Positions 2,138-45,063 of a stretch of 46,407 bases of DNA are shown here, piece after piece; position 1 is the first letter of the stretch, and each line of letters opens with the position of its first letter. The notes under the pieces were generated by a model. The model did no database searches. It saw only the letters and a program-made list of their open reading frames with translations, and had not been told where the DNA came from. The translations under genes were made by a program, and so were the position numbers. This DNA comes from Chitinophagales bacterium. Its GTDB lineage: Bacteria; Bacteroidota; Bacteroidia; Chitinophagales; UBA10324. The stretch is taken from contig JANWXQ010000058.1 in NCBI GenBank assembly GCA_025057275.1, positions 1-46,407 of the forward strand, in the 5' to 3' direction.

Positions 2138-4072
2138 TCACTTCGCCATTAAGCGCAGGAGTGCAACCTTCGCCTGCTCATGCTGCGGATTGATTTGCAG
2201 CACCCGCATCAAATGGCGGCGGGCTTCCTCGGTTTTTCCTTCTGCCAGGTCAATAGCAGCCAGATTGATCCAGGCCTGTTCGTAATCGGGGTCCAGTTCC
2301 AGAGCCCGAAGAATACATGCCCTGCCCTGCCCCGGCTGTTGCTGCAGGAAGAGCACGTAACCCAGATTGCCCCATCCCGGAGCGTAGCGATCGTTGAGGG
2401 AAACCATACGATGAAACACCTGTCGGGCTTCCGGCAGGTTCTGCTCCGCCATCAGGCTGCTTCCATACTTATTCAGAAATTGTACATTCAACGAATCGGT
2501 TTGCACGGCTTGCCGGAAATGGGCGGTTGCTTCTGCAAAGCGTCCCAGCTGGTAGTAGGCTTCGCCCAACCGGTATGCTGTCCAGGCATCCGTAGTTTTT
2601 CCTTTCAGGCCGGCAGCCGCCTGTACTACCTTTTCGTAATCCTTTTTCAGAAATGCCAGGCGCAAAAGGGCTTGATAATAGACCTCGTCTTTCTTTTTCA
2701 CCTGACGCAGAAAAAAATCCGCTGAGTCCAGCAAAAAAGATTGCTCGGCAAAAGCCTCATAGGCCTGCAGATAGCCCTGGGCCATCAGCAAAGGCGATGG
2801 TTTGTCGGTGGTCAGGCACTCCAAATGGACAAACTGCAGAATCTGGTCTTTTTGCTGCGGGGAAAGCGGAATGCGGATGCGGTGATCGTGAACGGTTACG
2901 TGCGGAATGTCTAATGTTTCCGAAACGGGCATGTGGCAGGAATAACACCGATTCCCTGCTGCCTGCTGCTGGGCCACAGGAAGGCTACACGGGTGCTGCT
3001 TTCCATGGCAACTGTTGCATGCCTTGTTGAAGTGCTCTGCCGGCGTAACCGTAACGCTAACGTGCGGATTGTGGCAGGTCAGGCAGGTCATTGGGGAGCG
3101 TTGGTAGCAAAGACTTTGTTTGAGGCGATCCACATGCGAGGCCATGATGAACCGGGGCGGATCGCCGGCATAGCGCGGCATAAACACCTGCATGACCTCA
3201 CTGAGCATCATGCCGGGACGAAAATCCGCAAAGGTTTTGCCTTCATTCAGCACGGTTATGCCCTGCAGGTGACAACGCATACACACCTGCATCTGCAGTT
3301 CGCGCGGTAGTCTGCGCGGGTTGACGATGCTGTAGTCAGGTTGTCGGGACGTGTCCACCCGAATGCCCCTGAGCTTTTCCGCAACATGAATACTTCCCGG
3401 ACCATGACACCGTTCGCACTCAATGCCGCTTTTGATCATAGCATACTTATTTTCCGCGCCGCTAATAACCTCCGGAAACATGTTGTGACAGGTCATGCAT
3501 TCCATGTTGATGGTCCGTTGCCAGCGGCTGTTGCGGCCACCTTCAAAGCCCGGCGCCAGATCCCAGATGCCTTTCTGCGTGTAGAAAGTAATTGGTGCCT
3601 GACACAAGTATCCCTGATGCCACCACAGATGCGAGTTGGTGTGCTGGCCGCTTCCCACAATATGGGTTATCTGCTCCCGGCGCCGGTAAACGGTATCGGT
3701 ACCGCTCAGCCGGTATTCTTCAATGTACAGGCTGTCCCGAACCCAGTAGGGGCGATACCAGAAATTACTGAAGGAATCATAGACTGCCTCATGGCCGGTA
3801 AAACGCGCTGCCGAACGGTCGGGTGTAGCCAGCCCCCACGAGCGACCCATACCGGTTTGTATAAATGTTTGATAGATATCTTCATGACAACCGCGGCAGG
3901 TCTGCATGCCCACGTAGCGGGCTGTATCCGACAGGTTGCGAAACGACACCTGAGACTGTCGGTTGCCGCACTGCTGCAACAGCAAACCAGCCCCCAACAG
4001 GCAAGCCACCGAAACCAGCACGAAGGCATGCCTGACTTTATCCCTGAAGCCAAAGGAGCAAAAGCGAACCAT
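2138..4072 (-). CDS. Membrane-anchored seven-heme c-type cytochrome with C-terminal TPR repeats
   Basis: The protein is 644 residues from the ATG at 4072, which is 1 nt after the rhodanese stop. An ATG nine codons upstream would overlap the rhodanese gene. Residues 13-33 form a hydrophobic export or anchor segment; a Cys at 35 follows it, but the context (LLLQQC) is a poor lipobox. Seven CXXCH heme sites are visible: CRGCH (59), CMTCH (192), CERCH (219), CMRCH (264), CLTCH (330), CNSCH (352) and CYSCH (376). Several extra His residues could be distal ligands. From about residue 440 to the end there are four or five TPR-like repeats, such as AWTAYRLGEAYYQLGRF. The layout recalls cytochrome c554-like multiheme/TPR proteins. 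It is presumably periplasmic and involved in electron transfer; the substrate is unknown. No nitrite- or hydroxylamine-specific motif is evident. Confidence 0.85.
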   Translation of the reverse strand: MVRFCSFGFRDKVRHAFVLVSVACLLGAGLLLQQCGNRQSQVSFRNLSDTARYVGMQTCRGCHEDIYQTFIQTGMGRSWGLATPDRSAARFTGHEAVYDSFSNFWYRPYWVRDSLYIEEYRLSGTDTVYRRREQITHIVGSGQHTNSHLWWHQGYLCQAPITFYTQKGIWDLAPGFEGGRNSRWQRTINMECMTCHNMFPEVISGAENKYAMIKSGIECERCHGPGSIHVAEKLRGIRVDTSRQPDYSIVNPRRLPRELQMQVCMRCHLQGITVLNEGKTFADFRPGMMLSEVMQVFMPRYAGDPPRFIMASHVDRLKQSLCYQRSPMTCLTCHNPHVSVTVTPAEHFNKACNSCHGKQHPCSLPVAQQQAAGNRCYSCHMPVSETLDIPHVTVHDHRIRIPLSPQQKDQILQFVHLECLTTDKPSPLLMAQGYLQAYEAFAEQSFLLDSADFFLRQVKKKDEVYYQALLRLAFLKKDYEKVVQAAAGLKGKTTDAWTAYRLGEAYYQLGRFAEATAHFRQAVQTDSLNVQFLNKYGSSLMAEQNLPEARQVFHRMVSLNDRYAPGWGNLGYVLFLQQQPGQGRACILRALELDPDYEQAWINLAAIDLAEGKTEEARRHLMRVLQINPQHEQAKVALLRLMAK

Positions 4073-4073
4073 T

Positions 4074-4394
4074 TCAGCCCGGTGGAGCGATGCGGCCAAA
4101 TGCCGCTATCCACGCTTCAATGCCACCGCTCAGATTGCGTACCTGTTTGAATCCTGCCTGCTGCAGAAGCAGTTGCGCCTGCTGTCCTCTGCGACCCATC
4201 TTGCAATGCACCACAACCAGCTGTTCTTTGTATGGTTCCAGATCGGCAAGCCGGGAGGGCAGCAGATGCAACGGCATATTTTCCGCCCCCAGGTTAAACT
4301 CTGCATACTCCCATTCATCACGAACATCAAGAAAACAAAACGAGCAGCCGGAATCAAGCATTTCCTTTAACTCCTCAACCGATAACTCCTGCAT
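4074..4394 (-). CDS. Single-domain rhodanese-like protein
   Basis: This is a 106-residue stand-alone rhodanese domain. It opens with the usual ELSVEELKEML helix and FLDVRDEWEYAEFNLGAENMP. The active-site loop HCKMGRRGQQA carries the catalytic Cys64, and NLSGGIEAW forms the closing region. Single-domain rhodaneses carry sulfane sulfur on the Cys and take part in sulfur transfer or thiol redox chemistry, usually in the cytoplasm. No signal peptide is seen. It sits 12 nt after the T9SS protein gene and 1 nt before the multiheme cytochrome gene, so it is cotranscribed. A link to cytochrome maturation or sulfur metabolism is only suggested by this position. Confidence 0.92.
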   Translation of the reverse strand: MQELSVEELKEMLDSGCSFCFLDVRDEWEYAEFNLGAENMPLHLLPSRLADLEPYKEQLVVVHCKMGRRGQQAQLLLQQAGFKQVRNLSGGIEAWIAAFGRIAPPG

Positions 4395-7066: not shown

Positions 7067-9724
7067 TTAAGATACTTTTAATATGTGGTCAATCAGATCC
7101 AGGGGCCGCAGGTTGTGCAGGGCTGCCTGATGGAACAAAACGGTTGCCGGCGTCATGCCGGGCAGCGAATTGATTTCCAGAATGATGGTTTCCACCCGTC
7201 CATCAGCATAGATGCGCACAAACGCATCAATCCGGCAATAACCCCTGATGCCGGCCAGGCGGGCGGCCTGTTCCAGTTCGCGTTTGACCTGCTGACTGAT
7301 GCGTTGGTTTTCATCGGGGTCAGACGAAAAGCGGGCGGGCGTAATGTTTTGCCCTTCACCGGCAAGAAACTTTTCCTCCAGTGAGAGCACGTCCTGGCCG
7401 GCCAGCACTTCGCTGGGCTCAAAGACTTCAAAGCGCGGTGCCCCCGTGCCGTTGCGGTGCATGATCATGCCACCGGTGATTTCGAGCAGGCGCACGGCAT
7501 CGCCCCGCACAATCAGCTCTTCCACCAGCATGCGGTCTTTGCGGGGCATTTCTTCGTTGGGCTTGATCTGCAGCAGGCGCGCCTCCGCCGCAGGCAACTG
7601 GGGCTGGCTGCGGAAGATCAGGCTACAATACGCCTGCAGCTCTTTTCGGTTGCGGATTTTCTTTACCGCCGAGCTGCAGCCATCATCCACCGGCTTGCAA
7701 ATGAACGGATAGGAAAAATGTTGTTCCAGCTGACGAATCAACGTGCGGGGCTGTTCCAGCCATTGCCGGCGCTCCACTAGCAGGTGACGCGGCACCCGCA
7801 GGCCATGGCGCGCCAGCCATTCGTTTGTGGCGTATTTGTCGATCGTCAGTTCAGCTGCCTGAGCGCCGGAGCCGTTGAACGGAAGGCCTGCACGGCTCAG
7901 ATCGCGCTGCAGGGTACCATCTTCCCCCGGCCGGCCATGAAGGGCGATAAATACCTTTTCAACCAGGCGACGCAGGCCGTTCATCGTTAATGGCTTTGGC
8001 CTGAAAGAATAGTCTGTTCTTCCGTACCGACGCCGTAATGGCAGGGCCTGCCTGCGGATGTCTTCCAGCAAACGACGATCTTTGGGTTGGAGCAGGAATT
8101 CGGCAATGTCGTCGGCATTGTCTTTGAGCAGCAGATTTACAGGAATGCGGTGCAGCCGGTAGCGTTCGGCATTGCCGGATAAGAAAACGGGAACCGGTTC
8201 GTAGTAAGCTGAAGAGGCCAGTTTTTCATATACGTTGCGGCCGCTTTCTACAGAAATGTGCCGTTCCGAGGAATAACCTCCCAGGATCACGGCAACCCTC
8301 TGCTTCTGACGACTACGGCCTGCGCGCCGCGCCATGGCATGATCCAGCCGGCGCAGCAGCTCTGAACAGGACGTAAACTTACCCGAAGCCATCCGCTCAA
8401 TCAGCGAAGTGCGGATGACATAAGTGAGGAACTGGGTCGGATCCAGCCCGATTTCTGCAGCCTGATGAAAAAAGAAGGAAGAAGGCATCATGCCCGAAGT
8501 GGTATTCGGGTCGTTGAGCAAAACGGCTCCATCCTTATGTCGAATAAAACCATCAATACGTGCATAAACCTGAAAGCCAAAAAAATCATATAGCCGTTCG
8601 CAGGCCTGGCGCACCTGCTCAACCTGCCGGTCGGGCAGACTCATCGGTGTGATTTTACGCGACATGCCGGCCAGATACTTGGAACGGTAGTCGTATACCT
8701 CAGCAGCTTTGCGGATTTCGGTGGGCGGCAGGGCCAACGGGCGGCCGTCATCGTTTCGGATGACGATGCAACTGAATTCGGTGCCGTCAACAAATTCTTC
8801 CACGACCACCTGTTTTTCTTCATACACACTTTGCAGCAAAAGGGTTTGCCTGCTGCTCCTGAAATGATGACTCAAAAACCCAAAGAGCTGCTCAGGATGA
8901 TAAATAACTTTTTCTCCTATACGAAAAGGTATGCCTATGCCGTCTTTGATTTCGCTGATCTGCTGTACCCAAAAGGCCGCTTGTTCCCTGGTCATGGAGT
9001 GCCAACGGCGGGCGGTAAGGCGATGGGTAAAAAAGGCGGCATCTACCGCATCGGCAAAACGGGAAAAGGACGGTTGAGCCAGCCGGCTTACTCCTATACT
9101 GGACCCCTGATTGGCCGGACGCACCACCAGCGGAAATCCCACGGAGCGACGGGCCTGATCATACCAATGCTGCCGCTTGCCGGCAAACCATTGCTGCCGG
9201 TCAATAACCAACCCACGGGGAACTGGCCAACCGGCTTCTTTCATTACCTTTTTTTGAAAGGCTTTGTCCATGCCAATTGCCGATGGCAAAATGCCGGAGC
9301 CTGTATAGGGCAGCCGAAGCATTTCCAGCAAGCCCTGAATGCTGCCATCCTCGCCATCGGTGCCATGCAAAGCCAGAAAAATGAGGTCGACCCGTGATGC
9401 CAGCTGGCTCCAGTCCAATGGTTTACCAAGGGCTTCCAGCATCTGACGGATTTCTTCCGGCCGGCGGTCAGCCAGCGATTCCACATAGATTTGAAAAGGA
9501 AAACGTTTACCGCCCTGATAAGCAGCCGGAGGATAAAAATCGCGGATAGTGCCTTTGTACAGATACGTCCAGTTTAGTTCCACCAGATTACCCAAAGAAT
9601 CCAGGAACAGGGGAACCGGTTCAAACAGCGACTTATCCAACAGGTCGTATACCGTGCGTCCGCCGGCAAAGGATACTTCGCGTTCCCGGCTGGAACCGCC
9701 AAATAAAATGCCGACCCGGATCAT
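7067..9724 (-). CDS. Tandem-fused D-alanine--D-alanine ligase (two ATP-grasp ligase units in one chain)
   Basis: At 885 residues this is more than twice the usual Ddl length (about 310-370). Unit 1 (1-465) has GGSSREREVS (9-18), LALHGTDGEDG (118-127), NQGSSIGV and the omega-loop-like YDYRSKYLAG (344-353). Its metal-site motif is NDPNTTSGM (404-412), with Asp in place of the usual Glu. Its ATP-binding Lys position reads VRP rather than VKP. Unit 2 (475-885) has GGYSSERHIS (482-491), ALHGRPGEDG (594-603), CKPVDDGCSS and a canonical LEINSLPGMT (849-858), but its omega loop reads SLEEKFLAG, without the usual Tyr. Ddl makes the D-Ala-D-Ala dipeptide for peptidoglycan. The two units may divide the work or form an internal dimer. 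There is no frameshift; this is a true fusion. It is the first gene of the minus-strand envelope operon, with a perfect -7 box 7 nt upstream. Confidence 0.92.
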   Translation of the reverse strand: MIRVGILFGGSSREREVSFAGGRTVYDLLDKSLFEPVPLFLDSLGNLVELNWTYLYKGTIRDFYPPAAYQGGKRFPFQIYVESLADRRPEEIRQMLEALGKPLDWSQLASRVDLIFLALHGTDGEDGSIQGLLEMLRLPYTGSGILPSAIGMDKAFQKKVMKEAGWPVPRGLVIDRQQWFAGKRQHWYDQARRSVGFPLVVRPANQGSSIGVSRLAQPSFSRFADAVDAAFFTHRLTARRWHSMTREQAAFWVQQISEIKDGIGIPFRIGEKVIYHPEQLFGFLSHHFRSSRQTLLLQSVYEEKQVVVEEFVDGTEFSCIVIRNDDGRPLALPPTEIRKAAEVYDYRSKYLAGMSRKITPMSLPDRQVEQVRQACERLYDFFGFQVYARIDGFIRHKDGAVLLNDPNTTSGMMPSSFFFHQAAEIGLDPTQFLTYVIRTSLIERMASGKFTSCSELLRRLDHAMARRAGRSRQKQRVAVILGGYSSERHISVESGRNVYEKLASSAYYEPVPVFLSGNAERYRLHRIPVNLLLKDNADDIAEFLLQPKDRRLLEDIRRQALPLRRRYGRTDYSFRPKPLTMNGLRRLVEKVFIALHGRPGEDGTLQRDLSRAGLPFNGSGAQAAELTIDKYATNEWLARHGLRVPRHLLVERRQWLEQPRTLIRQLEQHFSYPFICKPVDDGCSSAVKKIRNRKELQAYCSLIFRSQPQLPAAEARLLQIKPNEEMPRKDRMLVEELIVRGDAVRLLEITGGMIMHRNGTGAPRFEVFEPSEVLAGQDVLSLEEKFLAGEGQNITPARFSSDPDENQRISQQVKRELEQAARLAGIRGYCRIDAFVRIYADGRVETIILEINSLPGMTPATVLFHQAALHNLRPLDLIDHILKVS

Positions 9725-38538: not shown

Positions 38539-39897
38539 ATGAAAACGCTGATCAAAGGGGCCACCCTCGTAAACGAAGGCCAAACGCAAAACGCCGATGT
38601 GCTTCTTGCTGACGCCCACATTGAACGCATTGACCCCATCATCAGCAGCGGCAGCTTTCATCGGGAAATCAACGCCGAAGGTCTGTTTCTGCTGCCCGGC
38701 CTTATTGACGACCAGGTGCACTTCCGGGAGCCCGGCCTCACCCATAAAGCCACGATTTACTCCGAGGCCAAGGCCGCTGTAGCCGGCGGCGTCACGTCCT
38801 ATATGGAAATGCCTAATACGGTGCCTCCCGCCGTAACCCTGCAACGCCTGGAAGAAAAATTCCGCATCGCCCAGACGACCTCCCTGGCCAATTTTTCGTT
38901 CTATCTGGGGGCCTCCACCGATAACATAGAGGAAATCAAACGCCTGAACCCCCGCCAGGTGGCCGGTCTCAAAATCTTCATGGGATCTTCCACCGGTCAA
39001 CTCGTCGTGGACGATGATGATGCGTTGGAAAACATTTTCCGGCATTGCCCTACGCTCATAGCCACCCACTGCGAAACCGATGCCATCATCCGCCAGAACG
39101 AGGACAACCACAGGCGACGTTATGGAGCAGCCATACCGATGAGCTGTCATCCGGAAATCCGTAATGCATGGCAATGCCTGCTTTCCACCCGGAAAGCAAT
39201 TGCCTTAGCCCGCAGCCATCGAGCTCGCCTGCACGTATTGCATCTGACCACCTCTGATGAGCTGCCACTGTTTGAAGCCCACAACCGGCTGGAAGAAAAA
39301 CAGATTACGGCTGAAGTATGTGTGCACCACCTCTTGTTCTCTGCTGCCGACTATGAACGGCTGGGCCCGCTGATCAAATGCAACCCGGCCATAAAAGCAG
39401 AGGAACACCGGCAGGCCCTGTGGAAGGCGCTGGCCGAGGACCGGCTGGACGTCATTGCCACGGATCATGCGCCGCATACCTGGGAAGAAAAAATGAGCAC
39501 CACCCCTGACGGCCGGCCCGATTACTTCCGCATCCCCTCCGGTCTGCCGCTGGTTCAGCATGGCCTGAACATCATGTTGCAGTTTTTTCATCAGGGAAAA
39601 ATCACCCTGACGGGCATCGTGGAAAAAATGTGCCATGCTCCGGCCCGGCTATTTCGCGTCAGCCGCCGCGGTTTTCTGCGCGAAGGCTATTTCGCTGACC
39701 TCGTTCTTCTGGATCTGCAGCATACCTGGCAGGTTGGCAAAGACAACATCCTGTATCGTTGCGGCTGGTCGCCATTGGAAGGCCATCAGCTGAAAGGAAA
39801 GGTAACCCACACTTTTGTTAACGGCCGCTTAACTTACCATAACGGATTATTTGATGAAAGCTGCAACGGCATGCGGCTGGAATTTGACCGGGCTTAG
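38539..39897 (+). CDS. pyrC: Dihydroorotase
   Basis: The protein is 452 residues, an amidohydrolase. LLPGLIDDQVHFREPGLTHK (51-70) is the metal-site signature, GLKIFMGSSTG contains the Lys145 expected to be carboxylated, and IATDHAPHTWEEK contains the catalytic Asp. The usual D-x-H-x-H metal motif reads D-D-Q-V-H here. As I recall, the Gln is normal for one dihydroorotase subgroup found in Bacteroidota and some proteobacteria, so I still call it dihydroorotase. It forms dihydroorotate in pyrimidine synthesis in the cytoplasm. The ATG at 38539 is preceded by no Shine-Dalgarno sequence. It probably shares a transcript with pfkA, ending before the secreted module promoter at 39924. Confidence 0.92.
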   Translation: MKTLIKGATLVNEGQTQNADVLLADAHIERIDPIISSGSFHREINAEGLFLLPGLIDDQVHFREPGLTHKATIYSEAKAAVAGGVTSYMEMPNTVPPAVTLQRLEEKFRIAQTTSLANFSFYLGASTDNIEEIKRLNPRQVAGLKIFMGSSTGQLVVDDDDALENIFRHCPTLIATHCETDAIIRQNEDNHRRRYGAAIPMSCHPEIRNAWQCLLSTRKAIALARSHRARLHVLHLTTSDELPLFEAHNRLEEKQITAEVCVHHLLFSAADYERLGPLIKCNPAIKAEEHRQALWKALAEDRLDVIATDHAPHTWEEKMSTTPDGRPDYFRIPSGLPLVQHGLNIMLQFFHQGKITLTGIVEKMCHAPARLFRVSRRGFLREGYFADLVLLDLQHTWQVGKDNILYRCGWSPLEGHQLKGKVTHTFVNGRLTYHNGLFDESCNGMRLEFDRA

Positions 39898-39923
39898 TTG
39901 GCCGCCGCTGTTGCTGAATGAAG

Positions 39924-39931
39924 TACTTTTG
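39924..39931 (+). promoter_or_regulatory. -7 promoter box TACTTTTG of the five-gene secreted module
   Basis: This exact TAnnTTTG match ends exactly 4 nt before the ATG at 39936. It predicts a leaderless mRNA for the module and separates it from pyrC. Confidence 0.65.
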
Positions 39932-39935
39932 AAAT

Positions 39936-40835
39936 ATGGCACGGGTGGTCATTGCCCTGCTGGCCGTTCTGGTTCTTCTTTCGGGGCCTTCCTGTACCAA
40001 ACGCATGGAGGAAATCGTTTATGTGGATACGCTGATTGCCGGCAACGACCCTCCTCCATACGATGGGGTCAGCAGTTTACAGTTAAATATCTACATCAAC
40101 CGAATGTATATTGATCTGCTGGGTCGCGAAGCAACGGCAGCCGAGCAACAACTGGCGCGGGAAACCTTGCAGTCTGATCCCCGCGATCCGGTTCGCCGTG
40201 ACTCGGCAGTGGCCCCGCTCACCCGTATGCCTGTCTATTACGACCGTCTGTTTGAACTGGCCAGTCAGGACTTTATTAATGGAGCCGACAGCGCGGAAAT
40301 AGCAGGCATCATGTTTCTTATTGCCTATATGTGGCATTTGGATTCCCTGGCCGGCAACCTGCAGAATTATGTCTTTTATCAGGCCGAACTGCTCAAACTA
40401 GATGCCCTGTTGGAGAACACCGAGCAGTATCAGGCAGGGGTGATCACCGTCAACGATTTCTTCCGTCGCCTGTTGGAAAACTGGTTTTACGACCAGGTCA
40501 ATATGGGTTCTGAGAATTTTGTCAAGGCCGCTTTTGACGATTTATTCCTGCAGCATCCCACCGAAGCCGAACTGGCCGCCGGCATCGCCATGGTGGACAA
40601 TGCCCCGGCAATTCTGTTTGGGCAAAACGGCAACAGCAAAGGCGATTTTGCCCTGATTGTTACCCAGAGCGATGCCTTCTACGAAGGGCTGATCCGAAAA
40701 ACCTACCGTCAGTTGCTGGCCCGAGACCCTTCCACCGATGAACTGGTCCGTCACCTGCCCCTGCTCAAACAAACCAACAACTGGCAATTGCTGCAACGTC
40801 AAATCATCATCAGCGATGAATACGCAGGTTTTTAA
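39936..40835 (+). CDS. Secreted DUF1549/DUF4214-like helical protein, first gene of the module
   Basis: The protein is 299 residues. The N-terminus is a hydrophobic segment followed by LSGPSCTKR, which may be an imperfect lipobox with Cys20. The mature part is mostly helical. INRMYIDLLGREATAAEQQL followed by YYDRLFELASQDFINGADS recalls the start of DUF1549 (planctomycete PSD1), where a D-LLG-x-x-P/A-T motif precedes a chain ending in a Asp/Trp-rich helix. The rest has two further units of a type seen in DUF4214: AAFDDLFLQHPTEAEL... ending QSDAFYEG, and LIRKTYRQLLARDPSTDEL ending IIISDEYAGF. I do not recognise a function. The end overlaps the next gene by 20 nt. Confidence 0.75.
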   Translation: MARVVIALLAVLVLLSGPSCTKRMEEIVYVDTLIAGNDPPPYDGVSSLQLNIYINRMYIDLLGREATAAEQQLARETLQSDPRDPVRRDSAVAPLTRMPVYYDRLFELASQDFINGADSAEIAGIMFLIAYMWHLDSLAGNLQNYVFYQAELLKLDALLENTEQYQAGVITVNDFFRRLLENWFYDQVNMGSENFVKAAFDDLFLQHPTEAELAAGIAMVDNAPAILFGQNGNSKGDFALIVTQSDAFYEGLIRKTYRQLLARDPSTDELVRHLPLLKQTNNWQLLQRQIIISDEYAGF

Positions 40836-41334
40836 TGCATCCGCTGCGCTCGTGTCGGGGCTGTTGCTGTTCGCTTCCTGTAAAAAGGAAATCATTGAAA
40901 AGCAACAGTACGGCCAGGTGGTGTATGAAGTGAATTCCACCACCCTGTACCAAAGCAATCTGGAAAAAACACGGCTGAAATCGTCCGAACAGTTTGTTTC
41001 CATTCTGTATTCCGACCTGTTCAATGAAACCCCTTCCATCAAGTATTTAAACGACCTCACCGAGCTGTTTCTTTCCTTCGGCGACAAGCGGCTGCTGCAG
41101 CAACTGTATCTGGAAAACCTGCTTCAGGATCCGCAATTGACTCTGCCCTCCAATGCCGAAATGCGATCGGACATACCCGCTTTCGTTACCGATACGTATC
41201 TGCGTTTTTATCAGCGCATGCCATCGGAATACGAAAAGTATTATTTCACCCAGCTGATCAGCAACGACACCACCATAACGCCGGAGCAGGTATACGCCGC
41301 GTTTATTCAAAGCAATGAATACCAGTACTATTAA
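40816..41334 (+). CDS. Lipoprotein with DUF4214-like C-terminus
   Basis: The protein is 172 residues from the ATG at 40816. The start was chosen because it leads directly into a good lipobox (LLLFASCKK, Cys near residue 22). The mature part is helical, and its C-terminus (VTDTYLRFYQRMPSEYEKYYF, then QVYAAFIQSNEYQYY) repeats the pattern at the end of the preceding protein, so the two are probably related. The gene overlaps the upstream one by 20 nt, so translation is likely coupled, and the next gene follows after 12 nt. The function is not known. The lipoprotein is presumably attached to the outer or inner membrane facing the periplasm or outside. Confidence 0.78.
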   Translation: MNTQVFNASAALVSGLLLFASCKKEIIEKQQYGQVVYEVNSTTLYQSNLEKTRLKSSEQFVSILYSDLFNETPSIKYLNDLTELFLSFGDKRLLQQLYLENLLQDPQLTLPSNAEMRSDIPAFVTDTYLRFYQRMPSEYEKYYFTQLISNDTTITPEQVYAAFIQSNEYQYY

Positions 41335-41346
41335 ACCTTTTTCTAT

Positions 41347-42681
41347 ATGAAACGACGCACGTTTATCCGTAAGGCAGGAATGGCGGCCGCCGGTGCCCTG
41401 ACGTTGCCCTACATTTTGCCTTCGGGCCGCCTGTTTGCCGGCTCAGGCAACCGGCTGGTAAACCATGTGGTGTTTATGCTGTTTGCCGGCGGCGTGCGCC
41501 ATCAGGAATCCATTGACCAGGGCTACCTGCTGGCGCAGGGGCTGCCTTCAACCGGCAACGTCATGCGCAATATGCTGGCCGGACCACCGCCCGCTTCCAA
41601 TCTGGTGTACACCCCATGGAATCCCATTCTTTCCACTCCGTTAACCGCCAAGGGCACCTTGTTTAAGGAATTGCGCTACAGTTCCGGACCTACCGGTCAT
41701 TTTAACGGCCATACCGCTGCCATGACCGGGCATTACACCGAAGCGAGCCTGAACCTGAACATCAACCCCGAATTTCCTACCGTATTCGAATACTACCGCA
41801 AGCACAGCGACCCTGCCCGAAGCGCCATCAACTGCTGGTGGATCAGCGAAGGCCTGGGCCCCTATCCTGCCTTAAATTTTAGCCGGCATCCTGACTACGG
41901 TCCGCTTTACGGTGCCAACTACCTGCGCCCCATCTCCACCTTTGGCACGCACGGCCTGGACTACCTGTCAGCACCCAAATCGTTTCAGCCCGACGACGTG
42001 CAGCGCATTGCCGTCATGAAAGAATTTCTGGATGCCAACTTCCCCAAATCCGGTGCGGAATACGCCGGCATCAGCAATAACCCTGATGATCAGCAACTAA
42101 TCAAAGATTTTATTCAAACCACCCTGAACAAAACCGCCGACGGACTGATCGAATGGCCTTTGCCTCCGGGCATTTCTCCGGCTGAACTCACCGGCGACCT
42201 GATCACTATTGCTTACGGCTGGGAGGTGCTCAAACAACTGCGGCCTGAACTGCTCGTCATCAATTCCTTTGATCTGGATGCCTGCCACTTCAACTTCACC
42301 GACTACCTGACCTTTATGCACAAGGCCGACTACGGCGTGGGATGGCTGTGGAACAAAATTCAGAGCGATCCCATCCTGAAAGACGACACCATCATGATCT
42401 GTATGCCCGACCACGGCCGCAACGAAAAACCCAATACCGTTTACGACCAAAACGGGCTGGCCGCCTTTGATCACACCAGCGACGACAATTCCCGACGTCA
42501 TTTTGCCCTGATTGTGGGTCCTCCGGGCAAGGTGCGTCAGGGACAGGTGGTAGGCGGTGCCGGCAATCCTGTAGGCGAAACCATAGATGCCGTCCCCACC
42601 ATTGCCCATATTCTGGGCTTTGCCGATTCCATACCGGCCGGCCTGTTGCCGGGGCGCGTATGGCATGAAGCTTTTTACTGA
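41347..42681 (+). CDS. Tat-exported DUF1501-like protein (alkaline phosphatase/sulfatase fold)
   Basis: The protein is 444 residues. MKRRTFIRKAGMAAAGALTL is a twin-arginine signal, so it is exported folded. The mature region follows the DUF1501 layout: NHVVFMLFAGGVRHQESID near the N-terminus, SGPTGHFNGHTAAMTGHY, and near the end MICMPDHGRNEKP, where the Asp-His is a metal ligand in the alkaline phosphatase superfamily. The C-terminus (DAVPTIAHILGF followed by LLPGRVW) is typical of sulfatase and phosphatase relatives. The catalytic nucleophile is not obvious, as in other DUF1501 proteins, so an enzymatic role is unproven. Its stop codon overlaps the start of the heme-lipoprotein gene by 1 nt. 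Confidence 0.85.
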   Translation: MKRRTFIRKAGMAAAGALTLPYILPSGRLFAGSGNRLVNHVVFMLFAGGVRHQESIDQGYLLAQGLPSTGNVMRNMLAGPPPASNLVYTPWNPILSTPLTAKGTLFKELRYSSGPTGHFNGHTAAMTGHYTEASLNLNINPEFPTVFEYYRKHSDPARSAINCWWISEGLGPYPALNFSRHPDYGPLYGANYLRPISTFGTHGLDYLSAPKSFQPDDVQRIAVMKEFLDANFPKSGAEYAGISNNPDDQQLIKDFIQTTLNKTADGLIEWPLPPGISPAELTGDLITIAYGWEVLKQLRPELLVINSFDLDACHFNFTDYLTFMHKADYGVGWLWNKIQSDPILKDDTIMICMPDHGRNEKPNTVYDQNGLAAFDHTSDDNSRRHFALIVGPPGKVRQGQVVGGAGNPVGETIDAVPTIAHILGFADSIPAGLLPGRVWHEAFY

Positions 42682-43619
42682 TGAAAAACTTCCTGCCCCT
42701 TCTGTTTGCCCTGCTGCTGATTTCCTGCAGCAAAACCGTAATTACCGAGCCCCCCGGCCCGTTGTTTAATCCCTACGACACCATTCAATATGACCAGGAT
42801 GCCGTGCCCGCCGTACCGCTGGATTCCACATCGCTGCCCGGCCTGCATCAATACATTTTTTCCACCAAATGTGCGGTGAGTGGCTGCCACGACGGCAGCT
42901 TTGAGCCCGACTTTCGCACCCCGTACAGCGCTTTCAACACTTTGGTTTATGCTCCGGTGGTGAAGAACACTGCCGGTCAGCAGTTCACCTACCGCGTTAT
43001 CCCGTACGACACCGCCGCTTCCTGGCTTTGGTACCGGTTAACCACCGACGATGCCGTACTGGGCCGTATGCCCCTGTACGATACGCTCGCTCCTGCCCAA
43101 CGCAACAAAATCAGGGAATGGATTCTGGCCGGCGCACCCGACCTGTTCGGTAATGTCCGCAATCAACCATCTGCCGAACCCGGACTTTATGGCCTGGTGG
43201 CTTACCTGCCTGACCACAACAACCTGCGTGTGGATACCATCCGAAACGGCATCATCATCAACCCGTTTCTGGTGCCAGCCAATACCAACCTCAAGATCTG
43301 GTTCGGCCTGGCTGACGATAAGACCTATCCGTTCTTTTTCACATACAATAAAGTGCGATTCTCTACCAACGCTTTTGACTTTTCCAATGCAAAGGAAACT
43401 CCGCTGGAGGTTACGTTTACCCCCCATTACGAGTGGCTCTTTGGTTACCAGCTTCCGTTTTTTCTGAGTACGACTGTGAATACGGGATGGTTTAAGCCCG
43501 GCGATCTGGTGTACATGCGTGTTTACGTTCAGGATGCGGACCACCAGACACCTACCGAAATTCCCGACAATGGCTCGCAGAGTTACATGATGCTGTATTC
43601 CTCCTTTCTGATTCAATGA
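42681..43619 (+). CDS. Heme-binding cytochrome c-type lipoprotein with CX4CH motif
   Basis: The protein is 312 residues with lipobox LLLISC (Cys16). A cytochrome-like domain at about 55-150 has STKCAVSGCHDG (61-72), a C-X4-C-H heme site, then VIPYDTAASWLWYRL and GRMPLYD with a probable axial Met130, then KIREWILAGAPD. This order (C-x-C-H, G/Y-D-x-x-S-W/L-L-x-R, M-P, W-I-x-x-G-A-P) is that of the planctomycete cytochrome c (PSC1-like) domain, except for the longer CX4CH spacing. The last 160 residues are beta-rich and unrecognised. It is predicted to be a surface or periplasmic electron-transfer or heme lipoprotein. It overlaps its neighbours at both ends. Confidence 0.82.
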   Translation: MKNFLPLLFALLLISCSKTVITEPPGPLFNPYDTIQYDQDAVPAVPLDSTSLPGLHQYIFSTKCAVSGCHDGSFEPDFRTPYSAFNTLVYAPVVKNTAGQQFTYRVIPYDTAASWLWYRLTTDDAVLGRMPLYDTLAPAQRNKIREWILAGAPDLFGNVRNQPSAEPGLYGLVAYLPDHNNLRVDTIRNGIIINPFLVPANTNLKIWFGLADDKTYPFFFTYNKVRFSTNAFDFSNAKETPLEVTFTPHYEWLFGYQLPFFLSTTVNTGWFKPGDLVYMRVYVQDADHQTPTEIPDNGSQSYMMLYSSFLIQ

Positions 43620-44062
43620 GGCGACTGACGGTTTTTCTGTGTGTGTTTTGCCTTGCCTGCAAAAAGGAGGAGCCCTACACGCCTCAGCAGCTCTCACCTG
43701 TGCCGGCGATTGAACTGATCAGTGTAAACCCTGCATCCGTGCGCCAGCTTACCGACACGCTGGTTTTTGTTATCAGTTACACCGATGGCGACGGCGACCT
43801 GGGCGACTATCATGCCGACTCGCTTTCCCTTTGGATTACCGATCTGCGGTTTCCATTGACCATCCGCTATCACATTCCTCCTTTGGCTCCGGCCGAAACC
43901 AGCATACCGATTACCGGCGAACTGCGTGCCGTGCTTTCCGGCATCATTCTGAAAGACGAACAGGCAACCAGTGAGCAGGCCGTATTTACCATCCGCCTGA
44001 AAGACCGAGCCGGCCATTGGAGCAATGAAGTGTTTTCCCCTCCGATTGTCATTTTGCCTTAG
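43616..44062 (+). CDS. Small lipoprotein, last gene of the module
   Basis: The protein is 148 residues with lipobox CLACKK (Cys15). The mature part is about 130 residues and all-beta: ISYTDGDGDLGDYHADSLSLW contains an Asp/Gly-rich loop that could bind calcium, and VFTIRLKDRAGHWSNEVFSPPI closes the domain. The pattern suggests an immunoglobulin-like or cadherin-like fold, but I recognise no family. The start overlaps the preceding stop by 4 nt (ATGA), so translation is coupled. After it there are 47 bases before purC, containing the purC promoter. Confidence 0.78.
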   Translation: MRRLTVFLCVFCLACKKEEPYTPQQLSPVPAIELISVNPASVRQLTDTLVFVISYTDGDGDLGDYHADSLSLWITDLRFPLTIRYHIPPLAPAETSIPITGELRAVLSGIILKDEQATSEQAVFTIRLKDRAGHWSNEVFSPPIVILP

Positions 44063-44109: not shown

Positions 44110-45063
44110 ATGTATCCGGCCATCACCCAAACCGATTTCAACTTTTCCGGTCAAACCGGCCTTTACAGAGGTAAAGTGCGCGATGTGTACGCCATAGGCA
44201 CTGATCTGCTGGTGCTTATCGCCACCGATCGCATATCGGCTTTTGATGTGGTGTTACCACGGCCCATTCCGTTTAAGGGACAGGTGCTAAGCCAGTTGTC
44301 GGCTTTTTTTCTTCAGGCTACCGCGCATCGGGTGCCCAACTGGCTGCTTGCGGCCCCCGACCCCAACGTCTGCCTCGGTCGCCGCTGCCGTCCCATACCC
44401 GTGGAAATGGTGGTGCGGGCTTACCTGTGCGGGCATGCATGGCGCCAATACCAAGCCGGCCACCGCAAGCTCTGCGGAGTTCCCCTTCCTGACGGACTGA
44501 AGGAAAACGACCCGTTCCCGCAACCCCTCATCACCCCTACCACCAAAGCCCATGAAGGCCACGACCAGGACATTTCCGCTGATGAAATCATTACCCGCGG
44601 ACTGGTCAGCGAATCCGATTACCGGCTGATGGAGTCGTATGCATTAACACTTTTTGAATACGGTTCGGCGCATGCACGCAGCCGCGGTCTCATTCTGGCC
44701 GACACCAAGTACGAATTTGGCTGGTGGAACGATCAGTTGTTGCTCATGGATGAGGTGCATACCCCAGATTCTTCCCGCTATTTTTATCTGGAGGGTTATC
44801 AGGAACGACAAAATAGCGGTCTGCCGCAAAAGCAGCTTTCCAAAGAATTTGTCCGCCAGTGGTTAATGGAACATCAGTTCATGGGCAGGCCCGGCGATGT
44901 CGTGCCGGAAATGTCAGACGAGTGGGTGGAAACGATTTCCCGTCGCTACATTGAGCTGTACGAAGCCGTTACCGGCTTAACCTTCGTTCCCCGCAATGAT
45001 GCCGACCCTTTGCTGACCATTGGTCAACGGGTGGAGCAGGCACTGGCCGCTTTGCCCCGCTGA
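44110..45063 (+). CDS. purC: Phosphoribosylaminoimidazole-succinocarboxamide synthase
   Basis: The protein is 317 residues. GLYRGKVRDVYAIGTDLLVLIATDRISAFD at the N-terminus is the SAICAR synthase signature (ATP-binding), RPIPVEMVVRAYLCGHAW contains the substrate motif, and LADTKYEFGWWNDQLLLMDEVHTPDSSRY is the second signature. The enzyme joins CAIR and aspartate in purine synthesis. The length of about 310 residues is typical of Bacteroidota; the shorter type is about 240. It has its own promoter and is followed by dapD after 17 nt. Confidence 0.97.
   Translation: MYPAITQTDFNFSGQTGLYRGKVRDVYAIGTDLLVLIATDRISAFDVVLPRPIPFKGQVLSQLSAFFLQATAHRVPNWLLAAPDPNVCLGRRCRPIPVEMVVRAYLCGHAWRQYQAGHRKLCGVPLPDGLKENDPFPQPLITPTTKAHEGHDQDISADEIITRGLVSESDYRLMESYALTLFEYGSAHARSRGLILADTKYEFGWWNDQLLLMDEVHTPDSSRYFYLEGYQERQNSGLPQKQLSKEFVRQWLMEHQFMGRPGDVVPEMSDEWVETISRRYIELYEAVTGLTFVPRNDADPLLTIGQRVEQALAALPR

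Follow-up and report, generated by a model that had tools for sequence, protein, structure and literature searches.

What kind of system is encoded by a run of five genes for exported proteins in a 46,407-nucleotide (nt) contig of a Chitinophagales bacterium, and is it, as an earlier note on this DNA had proposed, a reduced version of the planctomycete cytochrome/DUF1549/DUF1501 system? The stretch analysed (hereafter, the window) is the whole contig, and the five genes, which we designate p1 to p5, occupy positions 39936–44062, all on the forward strand. Comparison with related genomes revealed that p1–p5 are a real, widely conserved unit across the class. We propose that their products form an envelope complex in which p3 serves as a metalloenzyme, p4 as an electron carrier, and p1 and p2 as linkers, and which is a sister to the PSCyt1/DUF1501 systems; we give this reading a probability of roughly 45%.

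A search with p3 of 60 genomes, the window's own included, yielded 32 order-level stretches with a close p3 (L040–L071). All five genes were found in order at 24 of these loci by profile search in all frames, and at 22 by simple calling of open reading frames. The other 8 are either cut by contig ends (L047, L055, and L071) or represent split operons of four genomes (L051, L052, L053, and the pair L058 and L070, both from G005). From the listed places in the class, 34 loci of 29 families were picked by hand, and 29 of them have all of p1–p5; two exceptions, L233 and L250, stop at contig ends, and the rest are described below. The clustering in other genomes that the earlier note had called on a neighborhood survey to confirm was therefore found, and a chance neighborhood was rejected, because the five-gene order is conserved far beyond chance at both levels (24/32 and 29/34 loci).

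The co-occurrence of p3 and p4 extends to the whole order. Among 298 genomes, 70 have p3, 70 have p4, and 69 have both (Fisher P = 8e-66, uncorrected for relatedness). Both discordant genomes are explicable: the only genome with p3 alone (G462, 69% complete) has a contig that ends inside p3, and the only one with p4 alone (G001) has a decayed p4. In the 60-genome set, in which p1 was accepted at E ≤1e-6 and p3 and p4 by strong matches, p1 and p4 track p3 with two differences for p1; G004 (72% complete) has p1 without p3, its p1 and the start of p2 lying at a contig end, and G019 (80% complete) has p3 without p1 on a contig that begins in p3. Paralogous operons travel as a unit, since one and the same B-type clade, with the second operons of G018, G024, and G026 among its members, comes out of the trees of all five genes.

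Of the 69 genomes with both p3 and p4, 61 have them side by side on one strand, no more than 2 kb apart. They lie apart in the other 8 (G005, G575, and six of family f15), on contigs that continue past the genes concerned. The break falls at different points: p1–p2–p3 are separated from p4–p5 in G029, G356, and G365 (with p1 cut in G365), p1–p3 from p4 in G055, and p3 from p4 in G373; G043 has p1–p2, p3, and p4 at three places; G005 has the end of p1, p2–p3, and p4 on separate contigs; and G575 has p3 on one contig and p4 on another, neither with a further module gene found nearby. The retention of both p3 and p4 after the operon broke argues for a functional link that is independent of synteny. 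In G001, a genome of the same genus as the window, the flanks align to the window at 72% and 75% identity and the segment corresponding to window positions 39892–43107 (approximately 3.2 kb; p1 through p3 plus the heme-bearing half of p4) is absent. The rest of p4 and part of p5 are present at this orthologous site as broken pieces only (L151, 3703–4642), and we read the site as a probable deletion followed by decay.

Beyond the order, p3 was detected in 79 of 295 sampled class genomes (4 of them with a best E weaker than 1e-100) and, at a stricter cut-off, in 2 of 296 genomes sampled from the phylum, one of them the window's own; the two samples were drawn differently. The gene may, but need not, reside mainly in little-studied lineages. 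Distant p3-like proteins at 7 loci (L072–L078, E 1e-17 to 5e-6) were rejected as members and dropped from the counts, since p1, p2, p4, and p5 were not found there.

Protein p3 (41347–42681, 444 residues) has the twin-arginine translocation (Tat) motif RRTF (41353–41364), and the pattern [RK][RK]xF is present in 30 of 30 members. Its family profile matched 20 bona fide DUF1501 proteins at 95.2%, and an enlarged set at 95.5%, with H118, H314, [DE]355-G-R, and D375-H376 in register. Motif comparison revealed that (i) the SH of DUF1501 is retained as p3 H118; (ii) in the p3 motif D311-x-C-H314 (42277–42288), whose Asp and His are invariant in 30 of 30 members and are candidate metal ligands, H314 aligns with the His of the DUF1501 DTH and D311 lies one residue off its Asp; (iii) D375-H376 (42469–42474), also invariant in 30 of 30, aligns with the DUF1501 TDHG, the DH of the DHG motif (17/20) being retained; (iv) the EFGR of DUF1501 (20/20) is replaced by [DE][HC]GRN (30/30), of which [D/E]355-[H/C]356 (42409–42414) aligns with SEFGR; and (v) the Asp of GGxD (18/20) is replaced by an invariant Arg in p3 (GGxR..E, 30/30). 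These statements derive from the profile alignment and pattern counts, and the invariance of D311 and H314 from the family alignment. Because of the last two replacements, p3 appears to be a sister family of DUF1501 and not a member of it. Pfam DUF1501 (PF07394) recognized 2 of 30 p3 members at E ≤1, with a best value of 0.069 that is under the cut-off, and a search of the window's own genome with PF07394 gave no match. The Tat export and the DUF1501 likeness put forward in the earlier note both hold, the latter as a distant kinship.

The Pfam matches of the p3 family at E ≤1 included Sulfatase (9/30, best 5.2e-7), Phosphodiest (3/30, best 2.5e-7), and Metalloenzyme (3/30, best 2.4e-5). Of an Asp/His set of the alkaline phosphatase type, D311, H314, D375, and H376 are invariant; the nucleophile and one Asp were not placed in the sequence comparison. 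The sole match of the p3 profile in the PDB was sulfatase S1_8A at 0.087, and a single-sequence PDB search with p3 gave no result. We describe p3 as alkaline phosphatase superfamily-like.

Protein p4 (42681–43619, 312 residues) is a lipoprotein with an N-terminal PSCyt1-like monoheme domain and a C-terminal domain of unknown kind. Its heme motif CAVSGCH (42870–42890) is of the CX4CH type, which occurs in 28 of 28 members (CXXCH, 0/28) and in 32 of 32 class-level loci with p4; by contrast, the comparison set of PSCyt1–DUF1549–DUF1553 proteins has CXXCH in 30 of 30 and CX4CH in 0 of 30. Met130 (43068–43070) of an invariant Met-Pro pair, which aligns with the MP of PSCyt1, is a candidate axial heme ligand. 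The p4 profile matched the 30 PSCyt1–DUF1549–DUF1553 proteins of the phylum at 97.5% (one template, E 8e-12) and a set enlarged to 60 sequences at 97.0%, and the alignment spans the whole domain, from the heme motif through Met-Pro to the WIxxGA end. The Pfam PSCyt1 model alone was weak on the family (2/28, best 0.032), and the sole match of the p4 profile in the PDB was FoxE at 0.004. A PSCyt1-type heme domain in p4 is thus supported, and the CX4CH heme lipoprotein with a PSC1-like domain of the earlier note was recovered, including an invariant lipobox cysteine.

In the order sample, 14 of 80 p4 places cover fewer than 190 codons. Ten of the 80, at approximately 155–172 codons, look like versions with the heme domain alone, lacking the C-terminal portion, so that this domain seems to be the indispensable portion of p4; the remaining short places include the G001 remnant, a piece at a contig edge, and one with an internal stop. 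A separate open frame of 566 residues in G023 (L160, 4546–6243), outside the module, contains a p4-like cytochrome stretch (E 7.5e-9). In the window itself, a multiheme TPR protein with 7 CXXCH motifs is encoded on the reverse strand at 2138–4099; the window genome therefore also encodes ordinary CXXCH c-type cytochromes.

The first two genes encode lipoproteins of a linker type. Protein p1 (39936–40835, 299 residues) is probably helical, although its helices were seen only in a low-confidence model, and has repeated motifs like those of DUF4214 and phycobilisome linkers. Its family matched Pfam DUF4214 in 24 of 29 members (best E 3.7e-7), the phycobilisome linker in 16, DUF1549 in 9 (best 3.5e-4), and DUF1553 in 5 (best 0.0023); the window p1 itself is under the Pfam cut-offs for DUF4214 (score 12.5) and DUF1549. 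In the PDB, the p1 profile found solved phycobilisome linkers (best E 1.2e-9). Protein p2 (40816–41334, 172 residues) is a DUF4214 (PF13946) protein above the Pfam cut-off (28.5 versus 23.2 bits), 18 of 29 family members match DUF4214 at E ≤1, and its profile gave no result in the PDB. The p1 and p2 profiles match each other at 95%, by which the two are paralogous. A DUF4214 family search in 40 relatives picked up 1 genome but not even the window p2, and is not usable as a count of DUF4214.

The likeness of these proteins to the planctomycete families is short. The p1 profile matched the start of DUF1549 at 83.5% over 55 columns and the end of DUF1553 at 5.3%, and it matched DUF1800 at 80% over 71 columns; p2 compared with PSCyt proteins gave 8.2% and 17.0%. 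For reference, the known families DUF1549/DUF1553 and DUF1800 match each other at 43% over 29 columns, and pairs without expected kinship gave at most 3.2%. The likeness of p1 to DUF1549 and DUF1800 may come from a short helical motif that they have in common, and the kinship of p1 and p2 to DUF1549/DUF1553 is marginal; both proteins seem closer to the DUF4214/phycobilisome-linker domains. The earlier note had described the pair as DUF1549/DUF4214-like: the DUF4214 half is well founded, the DUF1549 half weakly so, and the p1 family matches both models.

These comparisons bear on an explanation in which p1 and p2 are unrelated to DUF1549/DUF1553, a DUF4214 scaffold having joined the other genes independently, so that the planctomycete likeness is partly convergent. 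That the best matches of p1 and p2 are the DUF4214 and linker models, with only short and marginal similarity to DUF1549 and DUF1553, fits such a history. However, p3, p4, and the marginal likeness of p1 converge on one system, and the gene order is the same. In 60 genomes, DUF1501 occurs at 76 places; a co-directed DUF1800 (57) or DUF1549 (15) gene lies no more than 4.5 kb upstream at no fewer than 72 of them, a downstream partner was seen at 1, and no partner at 3 (the count omits a second fragment and a match below threshold, and is a lower bound because DUF1549 was searched in few of these genomes); in the module, p1–p2 likewise precede p3. We regard an independent origin of the scaffold as a live possibility that falls somewhat short of even odds. 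It concerns ancestry and is compatible with any of the proposed functions.

The last gene, p5 (43616–44062, 148 residues), encodes a small lipoprotein with a putatively calcium-binding D-G-D-G-D loop that is partly invariant in the family alignment, and the small loop lipoprotein named in the earlier note was confirmed in this respect; no family match was obtained for p5, and its profile gave no result in the PDB. B-type operons carry a sixth gene, p6, for a protein of approximately 1,170 residues, and the two p6 members scanned contain CHU_C (type IX secretion), CUB, and PKD domains. Homologs of p6 (E <1e-190) lie directly 3′ of p5 at 8 order-level loci (L062–L069, three of which were the queries) and at 16 of the 34 class-level loci (among L219–L252), 24 loci in all, with p5–p6 gaps of −58 to 402 nt. 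No p6 is present in the window, the rest of the window's genome not having been searched for it. The p6 protein may be a surface partner of the module.

In the proposed mechanism, p1–p5 would form one lipoprotein-tethered envelope complex in which a metalloenzyme is coupled to a monoheme cytochrome. The enzyme would be p3, exported folded through the Tat pathway and probably loaded with metal. Anchored as a lipoprotein in the outer membrane and bearing one c-type heme with His/Met ligation, p4 would carry electrons to or from the working site of p3. The lipoproteins p1 and p2 would act as linkers that hold the parts together, p5 would be a small accessory lipoprotein, and in many relatives the type IX-secreted CUB/PKD protein p6 would fix the assembly to the cell surface or to the substrate. 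The locus with p3 and p4 only (L246) and the heme-domain-only p4 at 10 of 80 places hint that p3 and the heme domain are the module core.

Several observations weigh against this mechanism. We know of no redox-active enzyme of the alkaline phosphatase superfamily, and pairing p3 with a cytochrome would be out of the ordinary. With an invariant Arg where DUF1501 has the Asp of GGxD, p3 could catalyze an altered reaction or be inactive. The structure models of p3 and p1, with predicted local distance difference test (pLDDT) scores of 34 and 48, were too poor to use, and no neighbor common to all operon types at the order-level loci points to a substrate. At the class level, L222 is without p1 and L246 has only p3 and p4, the genomes not having been searched for the missing genes; L264 (G733, C24:1–12000, a re-reading of L252) has p2–p3 with the upstream side cut, and the 9.9 kb downstream of them contain neither p4 nor p5, which is at odds with a fixed neighborhood, G733 not having been searched for p4 elsewhere. 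The boldest form of the proposal, a class-wide surface enzyme system that joins an alkaline phosphatase-superfamily metalloenzyme to a CX4CH monoheme cytochrome on a phycobilisome-linker-like lipoprotein scaffold, with display by the type IX-secreted CUB/PKD protein where six genes are present, and so brings redox chemistry new to the superfamily, seems to us improbable.

Alternatively, the module could be a surface hydrolase for nutrient scavenging, in which p3 is a phosphatase or sulfatase, p1 and p2 bind or anchor, and the p4 heme is sensory or structural. The Sulfatase, Phosphodiest, and Metalloenzyme matches of p3 and its invariant D311, H314, D375, and H376 are consistent with this, as is the report that freshwater Verrucomicrobia have sulfatases encoded next to PSCyt genes, in a text that calls the function of PSCyt unknown (PMC5615132). 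Against it, the heme domain looks essential to p4, and in the order sample p3 occurs without p4 only where a contig ends inside p3; we consider a hydrolase unlikely. A structural surface layer or adhesin, in which p1 and p2 build the assembly, p3 serves as a scaffold without catalysis, the heme has a structural role, and the type IX-secreted protein is the exposed adhesin, would suit the likeness of p1 to phycobilisome linkers, which are assembly proteins, the CUB/PKD/CHU_C protein directly after p5, and the conserved Asp-to-Arg change in p3, but is quite unlikely given the Tat export and invariant candidate metal ligands of p3, which suggest a cofactor and catalysis, and the invariant Met of p4, which suggests electron transfer.

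In the window, p1/p2 overlap by 20 nt, p3/p4 by 1 nt, and p4/p5 by 4 nt, and p2 and p3 are separated by 12 nt, which agrees with the three overlaps and one gap listed in the earlier note. The lipobox cysteines C20 of p1, C22 of p2, C16 of p4, and C15 of p5 are invariant among family members in the alignments. The module lies between a gene that ends at 39897, which we take to be dihydroorotase-like, and another at 44110–45063, presumably SAICAR synthetase-like. A match to TAnnTTTG (TACTTTTG, 39924–39931), which we take to be the −7 element of Bacteroidota, is located 4 nt 5′ of the p1 ATG and is a candidate near-leaderless promoter. Because 4 of the 18 such matches on both strands of the window, that of p1 included, sit 4–7 nt 5′ of an ATG that opens at least 80 codons, a near-leaderless start of p1 is plausible. 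A sigma-70 scan found no promoter at p1, and inspection by eye of 28 related loci found a like-placed motif upstream of p1 in only 2 (L048 and L065). The leaderless-type promoter of the earlier note is therefore tenable for the window, but the motif is not general among relatives. Elsewhere in the window, an 885-residue protein encoded on the reverse strand (7067–9724) matches D-Ala-D-Ala ligase in two tandem copies (2 stretches with the Pfam N domain and 4 with the C domain) and appears to be a ligase of unusual, fused or duplicated build.

The PSCyt/DUF1549/DUF1553 and DUF1501 genes are a long-standing functional puzzle. A redox role has been suggested for the PSD1/PSC2 proteins of Rhodopirellula, and DUF1549 and DUF1553 are reported 41 times each in Rhodopirellula baltica (PMC2754498); DUF1501 is described as lacking biochemical characterization (PMC4452313). 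The PSCyt1–DUF1549–DUF1553 system is present in some Bacteroidota as well, DUF1549 having been found in 22 of the 198 genomes sampled from the phylum. No description of the five-gene operon was found in the open-licence literature, which leaves out most subscription papers, and an NCBIfam search gave no result. We label the operon a variant of a known, functionally unexplained system type. Its compact form, each part being a separate small lipoprotein, offers a more tractable way into the puzzle, as the parts can be expressed, removed, and assayed singly.

Three known systems can be compared with the module. The DUF4214 (PF13946) and phycobilisome linker (PF00427) families share with it p2, above the cut-off, and the p1 members that match both models and the solved linkers; they differ in that p1 and p2 are Bacteroidota lipoproteins tied to p3 and p4. 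The DUF1800–DUF1501 pair, which accompanies bacterial chitin synthases according to the passages concerned in PMC5122149, shares a partner upstream of a twin-arginine DUF1501 protein and the 80% match of p1 to a DUF1800 stretch; by contrast, those passages name no cytochrome, and DUF1800 is one larger protein. The third is the PSCyt1–DUF1549 (PSCyt2)–DUF1553 (PSD1) and DUF1501 system of Planctomycetes and Verrucomicrobia, with which the module shares the PSCyt1-type heme domain (p4, 97%) and a DUF1501-like exported protein (p3, 95%) with its partner directly upstream. Whereas the heme domain and DUF1549/DUF1553 are fused there, p1, p2, and p4 are separate frames wherever they were found, and the module also differs in its CX4CH heme motif, p1 and p2 nearer to DUF4214, an extra p5, often a type IX-secreted p6, and altered p3 motifs. 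The kinship of p3 and p4 and the separate lipoproteins of the "reduced planctomycete system" were thus upheld, but the word reduced is doubtful, because the unit is class-wide, frequently has a sixth gene, for a type IX-secreted protein, and is distinctive in heme spacing and active-site motifs. The module would instead be a split sister form of that system, built on the same logic of an upstream partner, a DUF1501-like gene, and a PSCyt1 heme domain, with a heme spacing, a scaffold, and often a type IX-secreted partner of its own.

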